Shown here: positions 1,674-15,378 of the stretch, in pieces | How the letters are laid out: every line of letters begins with the position of its first letter | Position numbering within the stretch: the stretch's first letter is position 1 | Origin: Phycisphaerae bacterium | GTDB lineage: Bacteria > Planctomycetota > Phycisphaerae > UBA1845 > PWPN01 | Length of the DNA stretch: 44,041 nucleotides | Assembly: GCA_012729395.1 (NCBI GenBank) | Contig: JAAYDF010000171.1 | Location: forward strand, 1 to 44,041 | Direction of reading: 5' to 3' | The notes under the pieces: model-generated | Database searches by the model: none | Seen by the model: the letters and a program-made list of their open reading frames with translations, nothing else | Told to the model about the DNA's origin: nothing | Made by a program: the position numbers and the translations under genes

Positions 1674-1709
1674 CTTGCTCACTTGTTGACTCGCTCAGTT
1701 GCTTGCTCA
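1674..1709. repeat. Short 8-nt satellite at the BatA 3' end
   Basis: Degenerate 8-base units (CTTGCTCA, CTTGTTGA, CTCGCTCA, then GTTG and CTTGCTCA) run directly up to the BatA stop codon at 1707-1709. They do not extend into the protein. No function is apparent. Confidence 0.5.
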
Positions 1710-3704
1710 GATGAAGACGCGTTTATTGTAGACGAACCACTCGATGAGCAGGACGACGCCGAGCAAGGCGAGGAGATAGGGCCATAGTGGGCGTTGCAGG
1801 TTCTCAGTGCCTTGGCCGGTTTGGACTTGGCCGCCGCCGATGTGGAAATCCAGGTGCGGAGCGATGAAGCTCTCTTCCTCGCCGAGCAGGCTGACGGCGC
1901 GGACCTCCTGCCCGGTCTGGGCGGCGGGGACACGATAAAAGCCGACCGAATCCGTCTGGCCATAGGTCGCCAGGCCGTCGGCCCGGATGGCGACCTCCTC
2001 CTCCCGGTTGTCGGGTCGCTTCACGACGGCGCGGGTCAGTCCGGGGCGTACGGGCACGCTGATCGCCTGTCCCGGCCGCGTGGGCGTCTGCCGACCGCCG
2101 GCGGTGTCGCCGGCAAGGTACCGCATGGTGTTGTGCATGAAGACCACCAGACCGACGTCGAAGACCCAGCTCGTATTGAGCATCTCGCGGCTCTCGTCGA
2201 AGAAGGTAAACGCGCAGATCAGGTACCGATGCCGTTCCTGCTGCAGGAGGCTGAGGACAGGGCCGTTGCTCGCCTCGATGAGTGTCGTCGCCTGAGCGGG
2301 GAGTTGCAGCTTATGCCAGGAGAACACCGACAGCGTGCCGACGGCCACGTGCCGGAGGACCGGATGCGTATCGTCCCAGTCGAGGATGATGTCGGTGTCG
2401 GTGATTGGGCCTTTCTCGACCTCGTCGATCAGCGGCACGCCGCCGAAGAAGAGGTAGTTACCAGGAGGCAACCGTTCCGTCGAGTGTCCGTCGAAGACGA
2501 CGACTTCATAACGGCACCGGCCGGCGTCGATGAGTTTGTCGGCCGGCGCGTTCTCGTACTCGTCGGGCGTCCACACGTCGTAGCCGGCCAAGGGTAGAGC
2601 GGCCATGAGGTTGCGCAAGTAGCGGTTGCCGGGCGTCACGAGCAAAGCGGACATGGCCCGCGGCGCGCCGACGACCGCGAAGGCCCGGTTGTCGATATCG
2701 AGATCGTCCGCACGAACCAAGCGGACTTCGATCTCCGCCGCGGTCTCGAACGTGAGGTCAAACGTCACCGCCGTGTCGCTGCCCTCGGCGGGCATGCCCG
2801 CGCCCGGCAGGCTGCCTAGTTGCTCGTCGCCGGCCATCGGAGCCAGATCACGCACCGTGCGCACGTCGCGAAGCCGGCCGTCCACGAACAGCGATACGTC
2901 CGTGGTCACGGGCGTACCACCGAAGTTACGAATGCGGGCCAGGACGCTGACCTGCTCCGGCCGTTCGTAGTGTCGGCGCACGTCGAGATCCACGATGCCC
3001 ACGTTGTCCTTCGCCTCACCGACGCGTAACACCTCCAGTCGCCCTCGCTGCACGACGACCTGGTCGGCGTCGGGCAGCCGGCCGTCGGTGAGCAGCAGGA
3101 AGCTCGACCAGGTGACGTCCGACGCCTCGGTGTAGGTATCCTCGCCGACGGGCGTCGAGTGGGCCTCGGCGAGCTGCATGGCCTCGTGCAGTCGGCCGGC
3201 GGCGTCGCTCTGGGTGATCGACTCGATCGCCCGGCGGAGTACCTGCTTGTCGTCGGTGAACGGGGCGAGCACGGCGGCGCGGTCGGCGAAGGTGATGATC
3301 ATGGCCCGGCTGGCGGTGCTCATGCCGTCGACGATTCGGCCGGCGTGCTCCTTGGCGATATCGAGGCGGCTGCGGTCGCCCTCTTCGCGGGCGGCCATGG
3401 ACGCCGACCGGTCGATGAGCAGCACGATGGACTGTTCCACGTCCGCCTTGCCGCCGCGGATGGGCTCACTGATGGCCAAGGCGGCCAGCAGGAGGACCAG
3501 TAGTTGCAGGATGAGCAGCAGGCTGGAACGCAACCGCTGGAACGGCGAGTTGACCCGCAGATCCTCGACCGCCCGACGCCAGAGCAAGGTCGAGGCGATG
3601 GGCAACTGCCGCCGCCTGAGCTTGAGGAAGTAGAGCAACACCAGCGGCGGCACGGTGGCCAGCAGCGCCGCCAACGGGATATACCACGGGGCCAGGAATC
3701 TCAT
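1707..3704 (-). CDS. BatA-family VWA membrane protein
   Basis: This 665-aa protein has the BatA N-terminus: a membrane segment at about 8-26, the juxtamembrane FLKLRRRQ motif, and a second membrane segment at about 61-80. A von Willebrand A domain follows with an intact MIDAS DRSAS motif (D98, S100, S102). A membrane segment close to the C-terminus ends in a short YNKRVFI tail. Proteins of this family work with MoxR AAA+ ATPases and DUF58 proteins in cell-envelope or stress functions (the Bat aerotolerance loci); the substrate is unknown. Its ATG overlaps the stop codon of the upstream DUF58 gene (ATGA, 3701-3704), which indicates translational coupling. No separate BatB, BatD or BatE gene is visible. 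Confidence 0.85.
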   Translation of the reverse strand: MRFLAPWYIPLAALLATVPPLVLLYFLKLRRRQLPIASTLLWRRAVEDLRVNSPFQRLRSSLLLILQLLVLLLAALAISEPIRGGKADVEQSIVLLIDRSASMAAREEGDRSRLDIAKEHAGRIVDGMSTASRAMIITFADRAAVLAPFTDDKQVLRRAIESITQSDAAGRLHEAMQLAEAHSTPVGEDTYTEASDVTWSSFLLLTDGRLPDADQVVVQRGRLEVLRVGEAKDNVGIVDLDVRRHYERPEQVSVLARIRNFGGTPVTTDVSLFVDGRLRDVRTVRDLAPMAGDEQLGSLPGAGMPAEGSDTAVTFDLTFETAAEIEVRLVRADDLDIDNRAFAVVGAPRAMSALLVTPGNRYLRNLMAALPLAGYDVWTPDEYENAPADKLIDAGRCRYEVVVFDGHSTERLPPGNYLFFGGVPLIDEVEKGPITDTDIILDWDDTHPVLRHVAVGTLSVFSWHKLQLPAQATTLIEASNGPVLSLLQQERHRYLICAFTFFDESREMLNTSWVFDVGLVVFMHNTMRYLAGDTAGGRQTPTRPGQAISVPVRPGLTRAVVKRPDNREEEVAIRADGLATYGQTDSVGFYRVPAAQTGQEVRAVSLLGEEESFIAPHLDFHIGGGQVQTGQGTENLQRPLWPYLLALLGVVLLIEWFVYNKRVFI

Positions 3705-4597
3705 TTGAGCAGCCCTCGCCGACGCAGGTAAGTGAGCACGAGCTGGTCGAACGGCACCTCGGTGCTCGTGAACAGGTACACGATGCCTCGCCGGCGGCAG
3801 AAATCCTGCAGCCCGCGACAGTAGGCGTTGAGGTTCTGCTTGTAGCGGTTGAGCAGGGCCCGGCTGATGGTGATCTCGGCGAGGTCGCCGTCCTCGACGT
3901 CGCGCAACTGCAGGTCGCCGGTCAGATCGGGGCTGATCTCCTGCGGTGAGAGCATCTGCACGACGTAGAGGTCATAGTGCCGGCCGATGAGGTAGCGCAA
4001 CCCCTCCTCATAGCCGCCCTTGTCCATGAAATCGCTGAGCAGCAGGACCACGCCGCGCTGCGGATGGCGGATCGCGAACTGGCGGCAGGCGGCGGTCATG
4101 TTGCCCGCGCCGCCGGTTTCGAGCGCGCTCAGGTGCCCGAGCACTTTCGAGACCAGGTGTCGGCCGCGGACACCGGCCAGCTCCGGGCCGAAGCGGTCCG
4201 ACCAGCCGCACAGCGTCACCCGGTTGTATTTGGCCAGCCCGATGTAGGCGATCGCCGCCGCCACCCGCTTGGCGTACCACAACTTGGCCGGCTCGCCGAA
4301 GTCCATCGACCCGCTGGTGTCCACCAGGACGCTGACGTGCAGATCCTCTTCCTCGAAGAACAGCTTAATGAACAGCCGTTCGAGTCGGCCGTAGATGTTC
4401 CAGTCCAGGAAGCGCAGGTCGTCGCCGACGACGTAGTTGCGGTAGTCGGCAAACTCGACCGACTGCCCTTTGCGTTTGGATCGCCGCTCGCCCTTCATCC
4501 GCCCGGCGAAGATCCGCCGCGACACGATGTCCAGGCGCTCCAGCCGCCCGATGAACTCGGGGTCGAGCAGGTCCGTCGATTTCGTAGCGCTTGCCAT
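3701..4597 (-). CDS. DUF58 domain protein (MoxR partner)
   Basis: The protein is about 298 aa, soluble, with the DUF58 signature LDWNIYGRLERLFIKLF followed by a VWA-like MIDAS (VDTSGSM) and a conserved VVLLLSDFMDKGGY segment. DUF58 proteins are VWA-like partners of MoxR ATPases. The start is set at the ATG at 4597 (MASATKSTDLLDPEF), where family homology begins; a GTG at 4627 is in frame but falls in repeat sequence. No strong Shine-Dalgarno is seen, so the exact start is uncertain. It overlaps BatA by 4 bases. A 195-base repeat-bearing gap separates it from MoxR. Confidence 0.87.
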   Translation of the reverse strand: MASATKSTDLLDPEFIGRLERLDIVSRRIFAGRMKGERRSKRKGQSVEFADYRNYVVGDDLRFLDWNIYGRLERLFIKLFFEEEDLHVSVLVDTSGSMDFGEPAKLWYAKRVAAAIAYIGLAKYNRVTLCGWSDRFGPELAGVRGRHLVSKVLGHLSALETGGAGNMTAACRQFAIRHPQRGVVLLLSDFMDKGGYEEGLRYLIGRHYDLYVVQMLSPQEISPDLTGDLQLRDVEDGDLAEITISRALLNRYKQNLNAYCRGLQDFCRRRGIVYLFTSTEVPFDQLVLTYLRRRGLLK

Positions 4598-4621
4598 CAC
4601 ATCACCGGGAAAGAAACGATC

Positions 4622-4817
4622 AACCACAGATGAACACAGATGAACACGGATGAAGAAGACACGTTAACTGATGGAACCATCACTTCCTCCGTCAACTCGC
4701 TTGTCTCAGGTTCGACTGTTCTCATCTACCTGTCCTCCCAAGCAGCCTCTCTGCGCAGCAACTCACAACATGCCTCTGCCCTGTCCGTTCTCATCCGTGT
4801 TCATCCGTGGTTCCTTC
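4622..4817. repeat. Inverted-repeat element (ACAGATGAACACGGATGAA family) between moxR and DUF58
   Basis: The left end (4622-4658) contains ACAGATGAACACAGATGAAC and then ACGGATGAAGAAG. The right end (4790-4817) is its approximate reverse complement, TCATCCGTGTTCATCCGTGG plus TTCCTTCTCC. They flank about 130 bases with no gene. A third arm lies at 39843-39870. The arrangement looks like a small non-coding mobile or REP-type element that split an originally tight moxR-DUF58 operon. It ends 5 bases before the MoxR stop codon. Confidence 0.7.
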
Positions 4818-4822
4818 TCCTC

Positions 4823-5842
<1,020 letters not shown>

Positions 5843-5894: not shown

Positions 5895-5972
5895 CCGTAG
5901 CGGTCGCCCCCCGCGGCGACCGGTGTCCGTAGCGGTCGCCCCCCGTGGCGACCGGCGGCGACGCAGCCGCCG
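5895..5972. repeat. Two family-A REPs plus hairpin downstream of the RAYT gene
   Basis: Two near-identical 29-nt palindromic units (5895-5923 and 5927-5955) begin CCGTAGCGGTCGCC and end GGCGACCGG. A second hairpin follows, CGGCGGC (5953-5959) with GCCGCCG (5966-5972), ending one base before the transposase stop codon. The same two-hairpin arrangement recurs at 23915-23992. Confidence 0.9.
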
Positions 5973-6467
5973 TCATATCTCGACGAAAACCTTCGTCCAG
6001 GGCCAATCATCCCATTTCTCAACCAAACCAGCACGAACCGGACTATTCACGATGTACCGCGCAACATTCTCCACAGTCTCCGACGCACGGCAGACGTGGT
6101 CATTTGCCGAGCGCTGCCACAAAGGGGCATGGCCGCCCGTCTTCATGAACTCATGCGTGGTGAAGCTCTTGAAGGAATCCAACCACTTGGCGATGGGTAT
6201 TCCGGAGGCTCCCGGCGACAGAAGCACATGAAGATGGTCAGGCATGAGACAGTAGCAGAACAAGTCGTAACGCAGCCGGCAGCCGTAGAAGTCCACGTTA
6301 CCACAGATCACCTGTGCGAAAGCAGGATCGTCGGTGACGACGTATTCTGCGCAGATGGTCAAATGCGTCGGCACATCCGCAGCGTAATCGTGATCGGGCA
6401 GGCGCACCGCGTGACTCTTGTCGTAGGTGCGCCAGGCTTCCTGTGCGGGTCTGGAGGATCGACGCAT
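5973..6467 (-). CDS. REP-associated tyrosine transposase (RAYT, Y1/IS200-like)
   Basis: The protein is 164 aa. It has the HUH-type motif in CLMPDHLHVLLSP (H78, H80), the PLWQRS..DH segment, and the C-terminal RYIVNSPVRAGLVEKWDDWPW block in which Y138 aligns with the catalytic tyrosine of E. coli TnpA-REP. RAYTs are domesticated single-strand transposases that process REP hairpins. The ATG at 6467 (MRRSSRPAQEAW) is preferred; an in-frame GTG at 6497 lies inside a REP. The gene is bracketed by family-A REPs in opposite orientation, as expected for a RAYT with its cognate REPs. It interrupts the VWA-MoxR gene cluster. All key residues are present, so it may be active. Confidence 0.92.
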   Translation of the reverse strand: MRRSSRPAQEAWRTYDKSHAVRLPDHDYAADVPTHLTICAEYVVTDDPAFAQVICGNVDFYGCRLRYDLFCYCLMPDHLHVLLSPGASGIPIAKWLDSFKSFTTHEFMKTGGHAPLWQRSANDHVCRASETVENVARYIVNSPVRAGLVEKWDDWPWTKVFVEI

Positions 6468-6486
6468 ATCACAGTTCCCATTCTCG

Positions 6487-6513
6487 CCGGTCGCCACGGG
6501 GGGCGACCGCTAC
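6487..6513. repeat. Inverted family-A REP upstream of the RAYT gene
   Basis: This copy reads CCGGTCGCC...GGCGACCGCTAC, the reverse complement of the copies at 5895-5955. It starts 20 bases upstream of the transposase ATG and ends 3 bases before the stop codon of the VWA gene (TAG, 6517-6519). Confidence 0.9.
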
Positions 6514-6516
6514 CTT

Positions 6517-9500
6517 CTACTCCTTCTCCTCCCGGCCGCGGTCATCCAGCTCCTCGCGGGCACGCCGTTTGGCTTTGAGCAGTCGGGAGGTCACGTCGTC
6601 GGTTCGGCCGGGCTTACGGCCCTTGCCGGGCTCGCTGGCGGGATCCTGGGCGCTGGCGGCGGCGGTGCCCAGCGAACGGGTCAGATCCTCGGCCGGTTTG
6701 CCGGCCTGGGCATCGCCGACGTCGAAGCGAGCCTTGCGGTCCGCGACCGGTTCGAGCGGAATGGTCGTCGACTCGGTTGCCGGACGCTTGGCCGGCACGT
6801 CCATGTCCTCGCGCACCTTGTCCCGCACGCCCTTGAGCTGGGTGATGGACTCCGCACTGCGTTGCCCGACGCGTCCCAGCGCCGCCACGCTCGCGGTGAA
6901 GAACCGCACGGCCGGCACGATGTACTGATACCGAATCGCCCAACCGACGCTTTCCGCCAGAAGGAACGCGAGTCCCGCATAGAACGTCGCGGCCAGGAAC
7001 CCGGGCCACGTCGCCAGGTCGAATGGCCCGCGAGCCGTCCAGAGGACCGCCAGCGCAACCACCAGCACCGCCAGCTCGACATAGACGGACATCGCCAGCC
7101 ATGACGCCAGCCTTCGCCCGGCCACGTCCAGCAGGAACAGCGGCAGCAGGATCCACTGCACCACCCATCGCCACACCGGCTGCCGGGAGACCACCGGCGG
7201 CAAGTTGCGGCTGAAGACCTCCTCGGTGCGTGGTTCCAGGTCGGCGAAGACCCGCCCGCCGGTCCGCTCCGCCGTCTTGTAGAGCAGGCTCAGGTTCGTC
7301 CCGAGTTCGCGGAACTCGGGCGAATAGGGCAGGCTCAGGCCTGTGCGGATCATGCCGCGTTCGCGGTCCGGCGTGCTGTACTGCAGATTCACCAGGTAAT
7401 TGCCGTGCTCGGTGACGTCGAACGAGGCCTCGTAGCGTCCCGGGCCGGTCTGACTGAGGTACAGAGGCTTCTGCTCCATGCCCGGCGTCAGCAGCCGGCC
7501 GCCGATGCTGAGGAAGTTGAGGAACGACGCGTCGCGATTGAGGGCCTCGACCACCACGTATCCCCGGTTGCCCTCCAGTCGGGTGAGCACGTCGAAATCC
7601 GCGGAGGCCTCTTGCCGCGCGACCAGCCGCACCAACTGGGCCCAGAACCGTCCGAACTTCTCCCAGCCCACCCAGTTGCCGCCCCACTTGGGCCACCATC
7701 CGCTGGTGAAGACGGCCATGCGGCCCATCTCGTAATGCCAGTGGGCCAGCACGGGGTCATCGCCGTCGCTACCCCGGCGGAACATAGGCATGATGCAGTC
7801 GGGCTTGGCCTGCGTCATGACCAGACCGCCCAACTGTGGCACCTCCTGCGGGGCGATGCCCTGCGTCGCCTGCGAGAAGCCCGGCAACAACTGCGGGCTG
7901 AAAGGCTGGTCGTCGATCAACGGTCGGCGGACGACTTTGGCCTCCTTGACGAAGATCTGCGGGAGCTGCTTGGGGTTCTTGACCGCGTAGAACCGCCCTT
8001 TGGTCTGCCGGGCGATGTCCTTGAGCGGCTGCTCCAGCACGTGCGAGCCGTAGCCGATGCCCACCGTCGAGCAGGTGATCTGGTTGTCGACCATGGTCTG
8101 AATGACCGCGGAGGATGGCGGGGATGGATCGCCGTCGCTGATAATCACCATGTGCCGCTGGCTGGCGTCCTGCAGGCCCATCAGGCCATTGACCGCGATG
8201 CGCATGGTGCTGTCGAAGTCCGGCATGTCGCCGATCTGCATTTGCCGGATCTTGCGTTTGATACCCGCTTTGTCCGTCACCGCCGCGAGAGGCACATCCC
8301 AGTTCGGCCCGCCCACGCGGAACGAATAACACAGCACGCCCAGGTAATCGAGCGAGCTGATCGTATCCACACTGGCCATGGCCACCTGCTCGCCCCAGTA
8401 GTTGCCGCGTGAGATCTCGCAACTGTGCATGATGATGACCAGGGCCCCGCGCGGCATGATCTTCTTGTGCTTGACCTCGAAGGAGACGGGGCTGACCTCC
8501 TCGACCGGCGAGCCGATCCAGCCGCCCGCACCGAAGCCCTCGTCACCGCCGGTCATAATCAGCCCGCCCCCGAAGTCCCGCACATAGCTGGCCAGTGCCT
8601 CGTGCTGTTCACGGGTGAAGGTATCCGCCGAGATGTTGGCCAGCACCGTCACCCCGTACTCCTGCAGCTTGAGCAGGTCGATGTGGACCTCGTCCACCCC
8701 GCGGATCTCGGCATCGATCTTCTCGCGACGCAGGGCTTCGTACAACGACTGATCATCCGTGGCATTGGGACGCGTGACGATAAGCACGCGGCCCTGGTCA
8801 TCGACGAAGGTGAAGGCCGTCGCCCGGTTGTTCTCGGCGATGGCGTCGTCCGTGGGCACCAGCGGGGCGACCCGCGCATCGAAACGATGCACGCCGCCGG
8901 ACGGCAGCTCGATGGGGATGTCGAACCGATTGGGCTGCATGCCGCCGGCCAGCTCGATGATCGGGTCGGACAGTGGCACCTCTACGTCATTGTGGTACAG
9001 GGTCAATTTGGCCCGTGTCGGCCGCCGACTCTTGAGGATCATGCGGACCGGAATGGTCGTATCCCGGCCGGCCTGAGAGGGCACCACCAGCCGATCGAAC
9101 AGGATCTCCGCGTCGCGGCGGTACTGCAGCGGCAGCACGTCGACCACGATTCCGTTGGCGGCCGCGATCTCGACCTCGTCGGCCAGGTTGCCCGCGTTCT
9201 CGTTCCCGTCGCTCAGCAGCACGACCCGGCGGGCGAAGCCCTCGGGAAACGAGGCGATGGCCATGCGCAGACCTGCCGCCAGGTTCGTCCGGTCCGGCTC
9301 CTGGGCCATGCCGAACCCGAATACCTCGACCCCGCCGCGGCTGGGGATCATGTCCACGTCCGCCTGCCCGTCCGCACTGATGACGCCCACACGGTCGTCG
9401 CGCTCCGCCGAGGCCGCCACCTGCCTGATGTACTGCTGGGAGGCTTCCCGCAGGTCGTCCGGGATGCTCCGCGAGCGATCGAGCACGAACAACACCGCCA

Positions 9501-9714
9501 CGCGATCGTTGCGCCGCACGATCTCCACACGAGCCAAGGCCACCGCCAACGCCGCGATGACCAGACTACGCAGGATAACCGCCAGAATACGCCGCGGCCG
9601 TTCCAGCCCAGCCAGCGACCGCCGCGAGATCACCACCAAGACGGGGATGACCAGCAGCAGCCACAGCCACTCCGGGCGGTCAAACGAAATGGGCGAACTG
9701 ATGCCCAGCATCAT
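6517..9714 (-). CDS. Large membrane protein with VWA, GATase-like and second VWA-like domains
   Basis: The protein has 1065 aa. Two membrane segments (about 17-30 and 42-62) precede a VWA domain with MIDAS DRSRS (D79, S81, S83). A middle region (about 306-410, with FGGGLIMTGGDEGFGAGGW) resembles the class-I glutamine-amidotransferase-like fold of such proteins. A second VWA-like domain follows (about 423-590), but its MIDAS position reads HSCEIS, so metal binding is doubtful. Two or three membrane segments lie at about 855-960, then a charged cytoplasmic tail. This architecture is known in Planctomycetota gene clusters with MoxR. The start is 8 bases after the NHL-permease stop, with CGGAG before ATGATG, suggesting coupling. 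Confidence 0.85.
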   Translation of the reverse strand: MMLGISSPISFDRPEWLWLLLVIPVLVVISRRSLAGLERPRRILAVILRSLVIAALAVALARVEIVRRNDRVAVLFVLDRSRSIPDDLREASQQYIRQVAASAERDDRVGVISADGQADVDMIPSRGGVEVFGFGMAQEPDRTNLAAGLRMAIASFPEGFARRVVLLSDGNENAGNLADEVEIAAANGIVVDVLPLQYRRDAEILFDRLVVPSQAGRDTTIPVRMILKSRRPTRAKLTLYHNDVEVPLSDPIIELAGGMQPNRFDIPIELPSGGVHRFDARVAPLVPTDDAIAENNRATAFTFVDDQGRVLIVTRPNATDDQSLYEALRREKIDAEIRGVDEVHIDLLKLQEYGVTVLANISADTFTREQHEALASYVRDFGGGLIMTGGDEGFGAGGWIGSPVEEVSPVSFEVKHKKIMPRGALVIIMHSCEISRGNYWGEQVAMASVDTISSLDYLGVLCYSFRVGGPNWDVPLAAVTDKAGIKRKIRQMQIGDMPDFDSTMRIAVNGLMGLQDASQRHMVIISDGDPSPPSSAVIQTMVDNQITCSTVGIGYGSHVLEQPLKDIARQTKGRFYAVKNPKQLPQIFVKEAKVVRRPLIDDQPFSPQLLPGFSQATQGIAPQEVPQLGGLVMTQAKPDCIMPMFRRGSDGDDPVLAHWHYEMGRMAVFTSGWWPKWGGNWVGWEKFGRFWAQLVRLVARQEASADFDVLTRLEGNRGYVVVEALNRDASFLNFLSIGGRLLTPGMEQKPLYLSQTGPGRYEASFDVTEHGNYLVNLQYSTPDRERGMIRTGLSLPYSPEFRELGTNLSLLYKTAERTGGRVFADLEPRTEEVFSRNLPPVVSRQPVWRWVVQWILLPLFLLDVAGRRLASWLAMSVYVELAVLVVALAVLWTARGPFDLATWPGFLAATFYAGLAFLLAESVGWAIRYQYIVPAVRFFTASVAALGRVGQRSAESITQLKGVRDKVREDMDVPAKRPATESTTIPLEPVADRKARFDVGDAQAGKPAEDLTRSLGTAAASAQDPASEPGKGRKPGRTDDVTSRLLKAKRRAREELDDRGREEKE

Positions 9715-9722
9715 CGCTCCGG

Positions 9723-12323
9723 TTACCTGAGAACCTGAACGCGGTGGTTACCCGCGTCCAACACATAGACCCGACCGTCCGCCCCCAGGGCCACGCCCCA
9801 CGGACTAGCTAACGATCCGACCCGCCGGCCGGCCGTGCCCCAAGTACCCAGGCTATGACCCTGACGGTCAAACCGCTGAATGCGATTGTTGCCATACTCG
9901 CACACCAGCAGCGTGCCGTCCCCGGCGATGGCCAGATCGTAGGGGTACTGTAACTGGCCCGGCCCGCGCCCGGCAGTACCTAACGTGCCCAACAACCGCC
10001 CCTCGCGACTGAATCGGCACAGCCGATGGTGACAGGCATCCGCCACCCACAGTGAGCCGTCCGAGTCGAAGGTCATCGACTGCGGACGCGACAGTGCCGC
10101 AGGGCCGCTGTCCGCGGTGCCGAACGCGGCGATCGGCTCGAAATCGGGTGTGAATCGCGTAATCCGGTCGTTGCCGCCGTATTCACTCACGTACAGGAAA
10201 CCCTCGCGATCCACCGCGACGCTCGTCGGGTAGGTGAACTGCCCCAACTGCTCGCCGTACGAGCCGAACCGGGCCGACTCCTTGCCGTTGCGGTCAAAGA
10301 TCACCACGCGGTGGTAGTGCGTATCGGCCACCAACACCCGCCCTCGGTCGTCGACGCTGATGCCCGTGGGTTTGCCCGCCTCCCACTCCGGCATGCGCCA
10401 CGCGAGCTCATACTCACCGTCGGCGTTGAATCGCTGAATGCGGGCGAACATGTCCACCACAAACAGTCTGCCGTCCGGGGCCGTCGCCAGGGCACGCGGA
10501 TACACGAACTGCCCCGGCCCCAAGCCCTTCTCGCCGAATACCAGGACCGGCCGCCGCCCCTCCAACTCATGCCCACCGCACCCGCCGACGCCGGTCATCA
10601 CCAGGCCCGCACACAGGCTCACCGCCTTGCCGATCATCCGCCGCCGACCGCCTGGCCGAACCAGGAGCCACCCACACAGCAAGGTCAACACCAGACCCGC
10701 CCCACAGGCCGTCAGGCTCGTCGCGATCACCACGTCATCCCGTCCGTAGTGCATGTGGTTCAACAGCGTCAGCGACAATCCCTGAGATCCTACCGGCGAA
10801 ACCAGGTGAGTCACCACGACCTCGAACATGGCTAGCACCGCCACGATCAGCCCCGCGGCCGCCAGCGCCGGCGCGAACATCGGCAGCAGGATGTACGCCA
10901 GCACGCCGATGCTTCCCGCACCGTCCGAGCGGGCCTGCTCGACCGTCGACACGATCTGCCGACCGACCGCCAGCCACACCACCGCCACCGCCACGGCCGC
11001 GTAGCGAGCCACCAGACCCAACGACCATACCAGCGGCGTGTGGTCATACAACCACCCGGGCAGGCCATGGCGGTTGTACACGGTAATGAAGCCCACGCCC
11101 ACCGCCGCCGGAGGTACAACCGCCACCAGGACGCAAAGCAATGCCCCACACGTCGCCCACCGAGAGCAAGCTGCCTTCCCCAGCAGCACCGTGAACACCG
11201 CCAACGAGAGGGTCAAGACAGCCGCCAGCAGCCCGACCCCCAGTGACACTTTCCACTCGCGCGCGAATAGCCGCAAGGCCTGCCCCCAGGCCCCCCTATT
11301 CCGCATAGACGTGGCCAGAACAACCAGCGGCAACCCAACGGTCAGCAGCCAGACCCCCGCGGCTACACCGCAACCGATCCAACCGCTGCCCGGCCCACGG
11401 GCTGGCGACCCGCCGCCGCCGGCCAAGCCCTCGTCCCCACCCAACGACTGCCACTGTCGGGAACTCCACGCGCACCAGCCCGCCGCCCCGGCCAGCACGA
11501 CCGCCAGCGCGAGCACCTGTCCGGTCATGCGGATGACCTGACCGGCCGGGGCCCCCGCATCCACCAGCAAGAGCAGCTCCGTGGCCCACACTCGGGCCAT
11601 CGCCAGGTGCGGAATCGGATACTCGATCAACGTGACCGCGAAAACCACGCACGCCGACGCAGCCAAGTAGTTCCGCAGACTGGGCAGGGCCGCTCGCAGA
11701 AACGCTCGCGTCGAGGTCGTATCCAGGATCGCCAGCATGTAGGCCGGCCGACCCGCATAACGCCAGCCCGTCGCGATGATCAGGGCCACGATGGGCCACA
11801 ACCAGCCGGCCGAAATCAGCCCCGCACGCACCACGCTCCCGGTCGCGCCCAAGGCCGTCGTGGCCGGCAACAGACCCTCGAACGGCCCGCGCGGCCCCGT
11901 GGCCACCTCCCACGCATAGGCATAGACCTGCGGCGGAGTCAGCAACCCCGCCAAGAACAACCCCGTGACCACCGCTCGCCACCCGCCCCGCACCGACGCC
12001 AGCACCGCGGCCGGCCAGAGCCCCAGCAACAACGCCCCTCCCGTCGCCACCGCGGAGAGCAGTACACTCCGTGCCAACAAGACCGTCGCGGGCGGCACAA
12101 CGAGCGACGATGGCGAACCTTCGGCCTGCTGACCGGCGGTCAGGATGATGCCCGCCAGAGGAGCAACAAGCCCGCCGACCAGAACCAGCCCGCCAAGCAG
12201 GCAAAGGAGGATGGTCAAGCAAGAAGGAAGGTGCGATAGGCCACTGTTGAGAAGTGGAGAGGGCCGTCCCGCGCCGAAGGCACGGTCGGGCTTGGCCTCG
12301 CAAGCAGGTCTCTCACTTCTCAC
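9723..12323 (-). CDS. ABC transporter permease fused to a six-repeat NHL propeller
   Basis: The open frame encodes 866 aa. Residues about 1-560 form a two-module inner-membrane permease of the iron(III)/thiamine type (about 12 hydrophobic segments). Residues about 590-866 contain six NHL repeats (for example YPRALATAPDGRLFVVD and YPYDLAIAGDGTLLVCEYGNNRIQRF), predicted to fold as a six-bladed propeller. The junction (563-582) looks like a complete lipoprotein signal peptide, as if a lipoprotein gene had fused in frame. The solute-binding protein gene lies 17 bases upstream. The GTG at 12323 gives an unlikely hydrophilic leader, so the true start may be a few dozen codons later. No ATP-binding subunit is in the window. 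The fusion has no stop or frameshift. Confidence 0.8.
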   Translation of the reverse strand: MRSERPACEAKPDRAFGAGRPSPLLNSGLSHLPSCLTILLCLLGGLVLVGGLVAPLAGIILTAGQQAEGSPSSLVVPPATVLLARSVLLSAVATGGALLLGLWPAAVLASVRGGWRAVVTGLFLAGLLTPPQVYAYAWEVATGPRGPFEGLLPATTALGATGSVVRAGLISAGWLWPIVALIIATGWRYAGRPAYMLAILDTTSTRAFLRAALPSLRNYLAASACVVFAVTLIEYPIPHLAMARVWATELLLLVDAGAPAGQVIRMTGQVLALAVVLAGAAGWCAWSSRQWQSLGGDEGLAGGGGSPARGPGSGWIGCGVAAGVWLLTVGLPLVVLATSMRNRGAWGQALRLFAREWKVSLGVGLLAAVLTLSLAVFTVLLGKAACSRWATCGALLCVLVAVVPPAAVGVGFITVYNRHGLPGWLYDHTPLVWSLGLVARYAAVAVAVVWLAVGRQIVSTVEQARSDGAGSIGVLAYILLPMFAPALAAAGLIVAVLAMFEVVVTHLVSPVGSQGLSLTLLNHMHYGRDDVVIATSLTACGAGLVLTLLCGWLLVRPGGRRRMIGKAVSLCAGLVMTGVGGCGGHELEGRRPVLVFGEKGLGPGQFVYPRALATAPDGRLFVVDMFARIQRFNADGEYELAWRMPEWEAGKPTGISVDDRGRVLVADTHYHRVVIFDRNGKESARFGSYGEQLGQFTYPTSVAVDREGFLYVSEYGGNDRITRFTPDFEPIAAFGTADSGPAALSRPQSMTFDSDGSLWVADACHHRLCRFSREGRLLGTLGTAGRGPGQLQYPYDLAIAGDGTLLVCEYGNNRIQRFDRQGHSLGTWGTAGRRVGSLASPWGVALGADGRVYVLDAGNHRVQVLR
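10578..10637 (-). other. Internal lipoprotein-like signal at the permease-NHL junction
   Basis: Within the fused gene, Met563 (ATG at 10637) starts MIGKAVSLCAGLVMTGVGGC. It has a charged n-region, a hydrophobic core and a lipobox-like VGGC, with Cys582 at 10578-10580. A weak AGGCGG-rich stretch lies upstream of the ATG. It could be an internal translation start giving a free NHL lipoprotein, or merely the fossil of one. Confidence 0.45.
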
Positions 12324-12340
12324 CTCTCAATTCTCACTTT

Positions 12341-13363
12341 TCACGGCAGCAGGTGCTGTCGGGCCAACTGGATCGCTTTGTCCATCACTCCCGCCACCGC
12401 TTCGAAATCCACCTGGCTCTCCGGCGGCATGTCCATACCCAGCTCCTGGCGCAACGCCGCCCGCACCGGAATGTTCCGCGAATCGCTGCGGGCCAGCAGG
12501 TGTTCAACCTCGGCCGATACCAGGAAATCGATCAGCCGCCGGCCGCCCTCGGGGTTCGGCCCACCGGTAATCAAACCCACGGAACACGGAATGAACAACG
12601 TGCCGCCGTCCCCCATGTCCGGATAGACCATGTTCACCGGCTCGCGGTTGATTTGGCGAACGACCACATCATCGGTGTCCGTCGCACACAAAGCCAACTC
12701 GCCCCGCCCCACTCGCCGGGCCGCCGTCGCGTTGCCATCCTGCAATTGGCCGCCGAGGATTGGCCGCAGAGCCTGCAAAAAGGAGATATAATCCTCCTCG
12801 CCCCACAGTACGTACATGGCCGCGAGGTGCCCGCCCGTCGTGCCGAACTGCGGATCAGCAAGCCCCAGCCGGCCTTGCCACCGGGTGTCCGCCAGCTCAC
12901 GCCAAGAGGTGGGCAATTCCTCAGGCCGCACCACGGTCGTGTTGTACCCGATCACCCTCCCGCGCACCCCGAACGCCGTCCATCGGCCCTCGGGATCCTT
13001 ATACCGATCGGGGATCCCCTCGGCCGGCGGGCGGTATTCCGCCAGCAGCCCCTCTTTGGCGAGCAGAATCGTGTTGAACAGCTCGCTCGACCAAAACACG
13101 TCCGCCCGCGGCCGCGAGCGTTCCGCGCGGATACGACGCACCAGGCCCGTGGTCTTGCCCGCCTCGGCGTCGCCTTTCAGATCCACCCGGATGCCCGTCT
13201 TTCGCTCGAATGCGGCCACCACCTCACGAAGAAACGGCTCGTCAATGCTGGAATACAACACCACCGCCTCGGGGCTCGACTCCGATTTGCAGCCCCATGC
13301 CGCCAATCCAACCCATCCCGCCGCAAGAATCACCAGCCCGACGCCCAGACTCCGCCGTCGCAT
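12341..13363 (-). CDS. ABC transporter solute-binding protein, iron(III)/thiamine type
   Basis: The protein is about 340 aa. The start at 13363 has GAGAGG (13371-13376) 7 bases upstream and gives an Arg-rich n-region, a hydrophobic core and LAAWGC, a possible lipoprotein site. The mature part begins VVLYSSIDEPFLREVVAAF, the opening of type-2 periplasmic binding proteins of the FbpA/AfuA class. Later blocks include ADVFWSSELFNTILLAKEG, GYNTTVV and TLFIPCSVGLITGGPNPE. These proteins capture ferric iron or small anions for an ABC importer; the ligand cannot be read here. The fused permease follows 17 bases downstream. A 191-base gap separates it from the DUF4175-like gene upstream. Confidence 0.85.
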   Translation of the reverse strand: MRRRSLGVGLVILAAGWVGLAAWGCKSESSPEAVVLYSSIDEPFLREVVAAFERKTGIRVDLKGDAEAGKTTGLVRRIRAERSRPRADVFWSSELFNTILLAKEGLLAEYRPPAEGIPDRYKDPEGRWTAFGVRGRVIGYNTTVVRPEELPTSWRELADTRWQGRLGLADPQFGTTGGHLAAMYVLWGEEDYISFLQALRPILGGQLQDGNATAARRVGRGELALCATDTDDVVVRQINREPVNMVYPDMGDGGTLFIPCSVGLITGGPNPEGGRRLIDFLVSAEVEHLLARSDSRNIPVRAALRQELGMDMPPESQVDFEAVAGVMDKAIQLARQHLLP

Positions 13364-13554
13364 ACGCATTCCTCTCACAGTGTCATCCATCAGCCTCAAA
13401 CAGAGCCGCGCCCAACGAGCCGCAACGGATGGCTGATCTCCGCAGCGGCACAATCGCAAAGCCCGGCGCGTACTTCGGCCGCGTTGTCGGCGGCGGCCGG
13501 CCACCTGCGCCGATGAACAATCCGCCGGCTCAGGATACCTCTTATCTGCGCTTA

Positions 13555-15378
13555 TCAGCGCTCCTCGGCCTTCGTCGGCGAGTCACCACTCCCCGGCTCG
13601 GCGACGGTGTCCGCCGCGTTCGCCGGCAAGTCCCCTCCGGTACGAGTGAAGTAGTTTCTCACGCTGGAGTGGTACATACGCGGAACCTGTTCGCGAGTGA
13701 CCGCGTCGGTCGCGTCACGCTGGGCGGAGATCGCCGCCTCTACAAACTCCTGCGAGACCTCGCCCTTGTACTGCTCGCCGGACACGAATCGCTGCGAATT
13801 GATGCTGCCAGGCGTGGTATGCACCGGCGTCTTCCGCTGGACCAGTTGGAAGTCGGTCTGCTGCTGCGGAGCAACGCCGCCCTCGCCCTGCCCCATGTTC
13901 TGCCCCATGCCAGAGCCCTGGCCAGACCCCATGCCGGTGCCCTGGCACTTGCTGCACGGCTTGCCGCCCACTTGCCCCGTGCCCTGACAGGCAGAGCAAC
14001 CGTTGCCGAGCTCATCCTTGGCGGCATCGAGATCCGCCAGCGAGGCCCGCAACGACTGCATTTCCTGTTCGAGGGCCTCCATCTGCGAGAGTTGCTCCCC
14101 GGCGGCACTGAGCGCCGCACCGGCCGCCTCGGCACCCTGCTGGCCCTGCGTCGCCTGCCCCGCCGCCGTCGACAGACTGCTCGCCAACTTCCCCGCCGAG
14201 TTACACGCCGAGCAACGACGCTTCACATTCTGCATCACCTTGTCGACCTGCTCGCGCGAGAGCCCCTTCTCCGCAAGTTGCTTGGCGACCGCCTCGAAGT
14301 CCTCCTTGCTGAGGTTCTCCAGGGCCTTCTTGAGTTGTTCCTCCGTCATACCGGTCGCGGTCAACTGGTCCTTGATCCGCTGGTTGTCACGGGCAAGCTG
14401 ATCGATCTTCGCCGAGAGTTCCGCCAGTTGCTTGCGCAGCTCCTCGGACCGTTCCTTGGCCTGGGCATCCTCAGGCAGCTTGGCCAGTTGAGCGTTGATC
14501 GCCGCCATCGCGTCCTGGGCGGCCTTGAAATCCCCGCGAGCCAGTGACTGGGCCAGCTTGTGAACCTGGGATTCGCCGCCGCCCTGCATCTCCAGCCGCC
14601 GCATCATTCGCCGGAACTCCGTCGCGCCGGCCAGGTCCGGATTGTCCTGCTTCTGGCGGAGCTTGTCGCTGAGCTGCTCGATGCTCCGCATCGCCTGCCG
14701 CTGCACATCCAGCGGAGATCGCGCCAACGCCGTATCCAGGTTCTGCAACGCCTCCAGTTCGTCTTTGAGATCGGGGTTCTTCTCCTTGAGGCGCTCGTAA
14801 GTGCGATCGACCACGGGGCGGACCTGGACCTCGGCCCGCTGGACCATCTCCCGCCGTTCCTCTTCTTGCTTCTTCTCGGCAATTTGCCCGCCCAGATCGA
14901 GCGTCGGAAATACCAGCAAGACCAGCAGAGCAAGCACCGCACCCGCACCCGCCCAGTTCGCCGAACGCGGAACCGCCAGTGGCAAGTGCTGCCGCACAAC
15001 CAAGCCCTCGCCCGCCCGTTCCGCGTCCGCGACCACCGCACGGGCAAACGGATCCTGCTGAGCATCGCAGTAGAGCCCGCTGCTGAGCCGCTCCTTCAGG
15101 CCCGCCGCCTCATCCAGCCGAACGGCGGCAACCACGACCCCCTCGCGCGTCACCCACGTCCAGATCACCGCCGCGAGCACGGCCGCAACCGCCAGGCCAC
15201 TCAGCGATACCAGGTAGAACCAGCCTGAATCCTCCGCCCAATGCCAGCATCGCTGGCCGACCACCGCGCACGCGAAAAGCCCCGCCGCCGCGGCGAGCGT
15301 CCACCCCAGTGTGGCAAGCCCGCGCTGCAGCCAAAGACGATGTTGTGCCTGACGAACAGGTTGTTGGAGAGCGGACAT
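13555..15378 (-). CDS. DUF4175-like membrane protein with coiled coil and CxxC motifs
   Basis: The protein has 607 aa. Membrane segments lie at about 20-40, 52-76 and 141-160; the stretch between the last two (RLDEAAGLKERLSSGLY) resembles proteins of the DUF4175 type. A long Gln/Glu/Lys-rich helical region (about 170-460) follows. Three CxxC pairs are seen, C389-C392, C461-C464 and C475-C478, the last two as CxxCxGTG, the DnaJ zinc-finger pattern. The tail (about 560-580) has a REQVPRMYHSSVRNYF block typical of planctomycete MoxR-cluster proteins. The ATG at 15378 has GGGAG just upstream. It is the first gene of the minus-strand run leading to BatA. Function is unknown; an envelope scaffold is a guess. 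Confidence 0.7.
   Translation of the reverse strand: MSALQQPVRQAQHRLWLQRGLATLGWTLAAAAGLFACAVVGQRCWHWAEDSGWFYLVSLSGLAVAAVLAAVIWTWVTREGVVVAAVRLDEAAGLKERLSSGLYCDAQQDPFARAVVADAERAGEGLVVRQHLPLAVPRSANWAGAGAVLALLVLLVFPTLDLGGQIAEKKQEEERREMVQRAEVQVRPVVDRTYERLKEKNPDLKDELEALQNLDTALARSPLDVQRQAMRSIEQLSDKLRQKQDNPDLAGATEFRRMMRRLEMQGGGESQVHKLAQSLARGDFKAAQDAMAAINAQLAKLPEDAQAKERSEELRKQLAELSAKIDQLARDNQRIKDQLTATGMTEEQLKKALENLSKEDFEAVAKQLAEKGLSREQVDKVMQNVKRRCSACNSAGKLASSLSTAAGQATQGQQGAEAAGAALSAAGEQLSQMEALEQEMQSLRASLADLDAAKDELGNGCSACQGTGQVGGKPCSKCQGTGMGSGQGSGMGQNMGQGEGGVAPQQQTDFQLVQRKTPVHTTPGSINSQRFVSGEQYKGEVSQEFVEAAISAQRDATDAVTREQVPRMYHSSVRNYFTRTGGDLPANAADTVAEPGSGDSPTKAEER

Follow-up and report, generated by a model that had tools for sequence, protein, structure and literature searches.

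An ABC-type permease and an NHL propeller joined in one reading frame through a lipoprotein-type signal: a candidate planctomycete polyprotein

Background

In Bradyrhizobium, FbcH is a cytochrome b/c1 precursor in which a many-helix protein is joined to an exported protein, and an internal signal is cut after translation. FbcH is the closest precedent in principle for the gene described here, which likewise encodes a membrane protein and an exported protein in one frame with a putative internal cut signal. However, FbcH uses signal peptidase I, whereas the conserved site in the present gene is a lipobox, the site for Lgt and LspA.

The permease, the lipoprotein signal and the NHL propeller that make up this gene are known kinds of parts. 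Type I ABC importer permeases (the ModB, PhnU2 and PF00528 group) likewise have two six-helix modules, an EAA-type loop and an adjacent binding protein, but the permease examined here falls far below the family cut-offs, lies in a cluster without an ATPase gene and carries a C-terminal lipoprotein. The propeller has its fold in common with the NHL propellers of Thin, TRIM71, Brat and the PknD sensor domain, although it is found without the RING, kinase or RNA-binding contexts of those proteins. MoxR, VWA and propeller are encoded together in the MoxR-vWA-beta-propeller ternary systems, in which the VWA protein itself bears a C-terminal propeller and MoxR frequently has the P-loop GXXXTAKS (PMC7159879, section 22). 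The present locus likewise encodes all three, but its propeller is a separate lipoprotein and its P-loop reads GVPGLGKT.

Results

A single open frame encodes a permease and a propeller

The DNA analysed is a 44,041-nucleotide stretch from a Phycisphaerae bacterium, hereafter the window; its contig (C138) belongs to an assembly of 370 contigs that is 99.6% complete. Positions 9723-12323 of the minus strand form a single frame of 866 aa with no stop from end to end (Table 1), which bears out an earlier reading of the sequence alone in which a permease was described as fused in frame to an NHL propeller. The start of the permease is uncertain, and may be GTG at 12323 or TTG at 12218; the first ~35 residues counted from the GTG are poorly supported, and homologue alignments begin at about aa 35, near the TTG. 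Short repeated CTCTCACTTCTCAC-like units occupy the border between the binding protein and the permease (12280-12345), where this uncertain start codon lies.

Table 1. Features of the fused gene and its neighbours in the window
Feature	Position	Strand	Remarks
ABC-type permease part	10638..12323	-	aa 1-562; two modules, six predicted helices each
Junction, MIGKAVSLCAGLVMTGVGG	10581..10637	-	aa 563-581; 13th hydrophobic helix / type II signal
Cys582, lipobox cysteine (VGGC)	10578..10580	-	kept in 68/68 fused frames, preceded by G/A/S
NHL six-bladed beta-propeller and stop codon	9723..10577	-	aa ~593-866
Extracellular solute-binding protein (lipoprotein)	12341..13504	-	directly upstream; SBP_bac_6
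VWA / glutamine-amidotransferase-like membrane protein	6517..9714	-	directly downstream; conserved neighbour
607-aa conserved protein	13555..15378	-	upstream of binding protein; Cys-rich DnaJ-like zinc-ribbon region
MoxR AAA+ ATPase	4823..5842	-	P-loop GVPGLGKT
DUF58 protein (3701-4627) and BatA/VWA protein (1707-3704)	1707..4627	-	rest of MoxR cluster

The six NHL repeats proposed from the sequence are confirmed by a match to Pfam PF01436 (E = 1e-37) and by an AlphaFold model in which aa 589-866 form a high-confidence six-bladed propeller (pLDDT mostly 80-95). In Foldseek, the propeller model matches the NHL propeller of Thin, 6xg7 (E = 3e-24, TM-score 0.91 over the target), and it also matches the NHL domain of TRIM71.

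The permease is weakly related to named families

We found no match at all between the window permease and Pfam, and its best matches in NCBIfam, ModB (3.9e-7) and PhnU2 (3.2e-6), are both far below cut-off. Among homologues, PF00528 is matched by two of 14 fused sequences, and matches to ModB go down to 7.8e-13. The neighbouring binding protein is nearest in NCBIfam to PhnS, the 2-aminoethylphosphonate binding protein, again below cut-off. As the permease is so weakly related to named families, the label 'ferric-type' that it had been given is unsupported.

The two-module organisation, by contrast with that label, holds: hydropathy averaged over 68 fused frames (see below) has 12 peaks, corresponding to two sets of six helices that span aa ~36-562, and a thirteenth at the junction. 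Across the same 68 frames the counts of Lys plus Arg alternate between high and low, placing the N-terminus and the loop between helices 12 and 13 inside and the propeller outside; averaged hydropathy and charge together put the propeller on the outer side of the membrane, a placement that the sequence-only reading had proposed to check. The AlphaFold model of the permease part is of low confidence and too poor to use.

An EAA-type loop is found at about aa 462-482 (EQARSDGAG...ILLP in the window), in which G468 is kept in 40 of 42 split and 54 of 67 fused sequences and P481 in 52 of 67 fused sequences. From 14 sequences, the EAA motif of the fused clade had been suspected to be degenerate, which did not hold over 67. 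Across the permease and junction of the 68 fused frames, only two columns are invariant, Cys582 and His525. The latter (10749-10751) lies in the permease's final outside loop, and is fully or almost fully conserved whether the permease is fused, split or ATPase-linked; an NHL-specific role of a conserved M-H-Y motif was rejected, as His525 is present in the six ATPase-linked permeases too.

The junction carries a conserved lipobox

Residues 563-582, MIGKAVSLCAGLVMTGVGGC, run from an ATG at 10637 to the Cys codon at 10580-10578 and have the positive n-region, h-region and lipobox of a lipoprotein-type signal (RRRMIGK-AVSLCAGLVMTG-VGGC). The proposal of such a signal at this place is upheld across the fused frames, as the Cys is kept in 68 of 68 and in every one directly follows a G, A or S. 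The signal is internal to the 866-residue chain rather than at its N-terminus, unless translation starts at ATG563. AlphaFold places a helix at 562-579, with low confidence. Separate NHL genes have the lipobox too, both beside a permease (42/45) and without one (39/41), and the window's genome encodes LspA and Lgt. Neither a plain 13th helix nor a simple tether would need a Cys; its conservation therefore argues for cutting at the lipobox.

The fusion recurs across the class

Alignments of four, then fourteen, fused frames were run over the phylum and class. Beyond the window, 67 further one-frame fusions were found, and the 68 together represent 12 family-level groups. The resulting catalogue holds 68 fused loci, 45 split permease-NHL pairs and a further 41 loci with an NHL gene without a permease directly upstream, although the proportion of fused loci needs to be read cautiously and is not an unbiased frequency, as the absence of a stop was in part the basis for selecting the fused set. 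The fusion is also present in genomes assembled into one or a few contigs, for example G508 (a single contig) and G477. Given 67 further one-frame loci across the class, the permease-NHL fusion is a real and recurrent architecture, and much of the class has the fused form throughout. A search of a plasmid collection gave no full-length match, and one of a phage collection no permease match.

The sequence-only reading had regarded homologues whose parts are separated by a stop codon as evidence against the fusion. Such a stop was found in the closest homologues (53-54% identity, among 150 relatives), which have a TGA between both parts, but the 67 further fusions of the wider class lack it; within the window's own order, the two parts are mostly separate neighbouring genes. 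Split operons (relatives G002, G011, G007 and about 40 more) encode the 607-aa protein, the binding protein, the permease, the NHL lipoprotein, VWA and MoxR; they share the window's gene order and the lipobox before the propeller, but their permease and NHL parts are separated by a stop codon or a change of frame. In the nearest relatives both genes are in the same phase, with the TGA seven codons ahead of the first ATG, where the window has CGG.

In a tree of 109 rows, the fused/split label changes at least seven times, against a mean of 33.5 for shuffled labels; this minimum could be one lower, as L174 was counted as split though it is partly in a fused-looking frame. The window nests, strongly supported, in a clade made up of split genes, beside L034 and L035. 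This nested position suggests that its fusion is probably a later, secondary re-fusion.

The propeller belongs to a MoxR-VWA cluster

The genes of the window follow one another on the same strand in the order 607-aa protein, binding protein, fused gene, VWA/GATase-like protein, MoxR, DUF58 and BatA. A VWA neighbour is present at 62 of 68 fused and 41 of 45 split loci, and a binding-protein neighbour at 60 of 68 and 30 of 45, respectively. At the 41 loci where no permease was recognised immediately upstream of the NHL gene, a VWA gene is nearby in 29. As the NHL gene mostly keeps its VWA neighbour at these loci, the propeller is part of the MoxR-VWA cluster, of which the binding protein and permease form an optional part.

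An ABC ATPase inside the cluster was considered and rejected: of 113 permease loci, 112 have none within 7 kb, though the EAA loop is kept. Only L186, one of the 41 loci above, has an ATPase gene, between its permease and its NHL gene. This locus (genome G168, of another class) has a fuller layout: a 607-aa-type protein, binding protein, permease, ABC ATPase and NHL lipoprotein, followed by VWA, MoxR, DUF58 and BatA. Elsewhere in the window's genome, near nusA/infB, a UgpC-type ATPase is encoded without a recognised permease beside it (G000 C279, L284:5221-6363), and we infer that it could serve the permease in trans.

Membership in the MoxR-vWA-propeller ternary systems was also rejected on their defining features, namely the P-loop and the propeller-bearing VWA protein: the VWA protein of the window has VWA and GATase domains only, with no propeller of its own. 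The MoxR protein of the window scores above the bpMoxR cut-off (39.1 vs 27 bits), and AAA_3 fits it far better.

Two further features of the neighbourhood were observed. The 607-aa protein, beside the MoxR-VWA cluster, has DnaJ-like CxxC zinc-ribbon repeats. Between the VWA and MoxR genes lies a Y1 (IS200-like) transposase gene (5973-6497, minus strand) flanked by perfect 29-nt inverted arms (5929-5957 and 6485-6513), with a second copy at 5897-5923; the region 5897-6513 looks like a REP-associated transposase with REP sequences.

Discussion

A lipobox conserved in the middle of a chain suggests that two proteins are obtained by cutting one. On the sequence evidence, we think it reasonably probable that the window encodes a real translational fusion of neighbouring operon genes, made as one chain and cut at its internal lipobox by Lgt and LspA. 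We put at about even chances the broader claim of a polyprotein widespread among planctomycetes, in which Lgt and LspA part a 12-helix transporter from a lipoprotein at an invariant lipobox within their common chain. The ribosome would produce a single 866-aa chain, whose helices 1-12 would form the ABC-type permease and end in the cytoplasm. Residues 563-581 would cross from inside to outside as a 13th helix, doubling as an internal lipoprotein (type II) signal, so that the propeller would be exported. Lgt would then lipidate Cys582 and LspA would cut before it, which would leave the permease free in the inner membrane and yield, at the same place and in the same amount, an NHL lipoprotein; the two products would correspond to the two separate proteins of the relatives. 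The permease would presumably still transport, probably with an ATPase encoded elsewhere, and the role of the propeller probably lies with the MoxR-VWA cluster and not in transport.

The sequence-only reading had raised the possibility of two proteins from one frame, which comes close to our preferred reading, but it attributed them to internal initiation, which we consider less likely than cutting at the conserved Cys. Under internal initiation, the lipoprotein would have a start codon of its own, in this gene ATG 10637, and the missing stop after the permease would be near-neutral, leaving the permease with a dispensable tail or as a minor read-through fusion. In the window, ATG563 and Lys566 precede a good h-region, and separate initiation there could supply the lipoprotein; an ATG followed by K/R is found in 38 of 68 fused frames and some ATG, GTG or TTG in 62, and the separate gene of the closest relatives starts at the matching place. 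However, the other six frames have no usable ATG, GTG or TTG before the lipobox, and two of them (L219 and L179) lack every kind of start codon in that stretch, so that internal initiation cannot be the general rule. Starts are also not clearly enriched, with an ATG density of 3.1% vs 2.3% in the permease background, and the stop-free, in-phase state is kept across deep divergence and in many families, whereas separate pairs are spread over the three phases (17/16/12, n = 45) as expected without constraint. We therefore regard this explanation as unlikely.

A chain that stays whole, with the propeller held outside on the 13th helix so that the importer gains a sensor or docking domain, appears less likely still. 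The fusion itself would fit such an arrangement, as would the topology, which puts the propeller on the same side as the binding protein, and in other proteins, for example PknD (structural match 1rwl), NHL propellers are sensor domains on the outside. The invariant lipobox Cys and the small residue before it speak against an uncut tether, as do related genomes that keep the propeller gene without a permease next to it. The sensor-transporter that had been proposed for this gene accordingly has no specific support and is unproven, as the propeller belongs to the MoxR-DUF58-VWA cluster and also occurs without a permease.

That a missed stop or a sequencing error joins two ordinary genes is very improbable: the assembly of 370 contigs, the in-phase TGA of the three nearest relatives and the nesting of the window among split genes would allow it, but no frameshift at ~10640 is needed with both parts already in the same phase in those relatives, their TGA, aligned on the ATG, faces a CGG two substitutions off in a junction that differs at many other places, and a genome-wide artefact is ruled out by the same architecture in 67 other loci, finished contigs included.

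The reading that we favour, a polyprotein cut at its internal lipobox, would if true mean that a lipoprotein matures from an internal stretch of a many-helix membrane protein. Our search of the literature, mostly outside subscription journals, yielded no description of the present fusion, nor of any multi-helix protein with an internal lipobox. Lipoprotein signals are looked for at the N-termini of proteins, and an internal one conserved throughout a class would escape standard annotation. If cut, the internal lipobox would show Lgt and LspA acting on a helix inside a multi-helix protein, and the fused and split versions found in related genomes are a simple test system for why two genes join.
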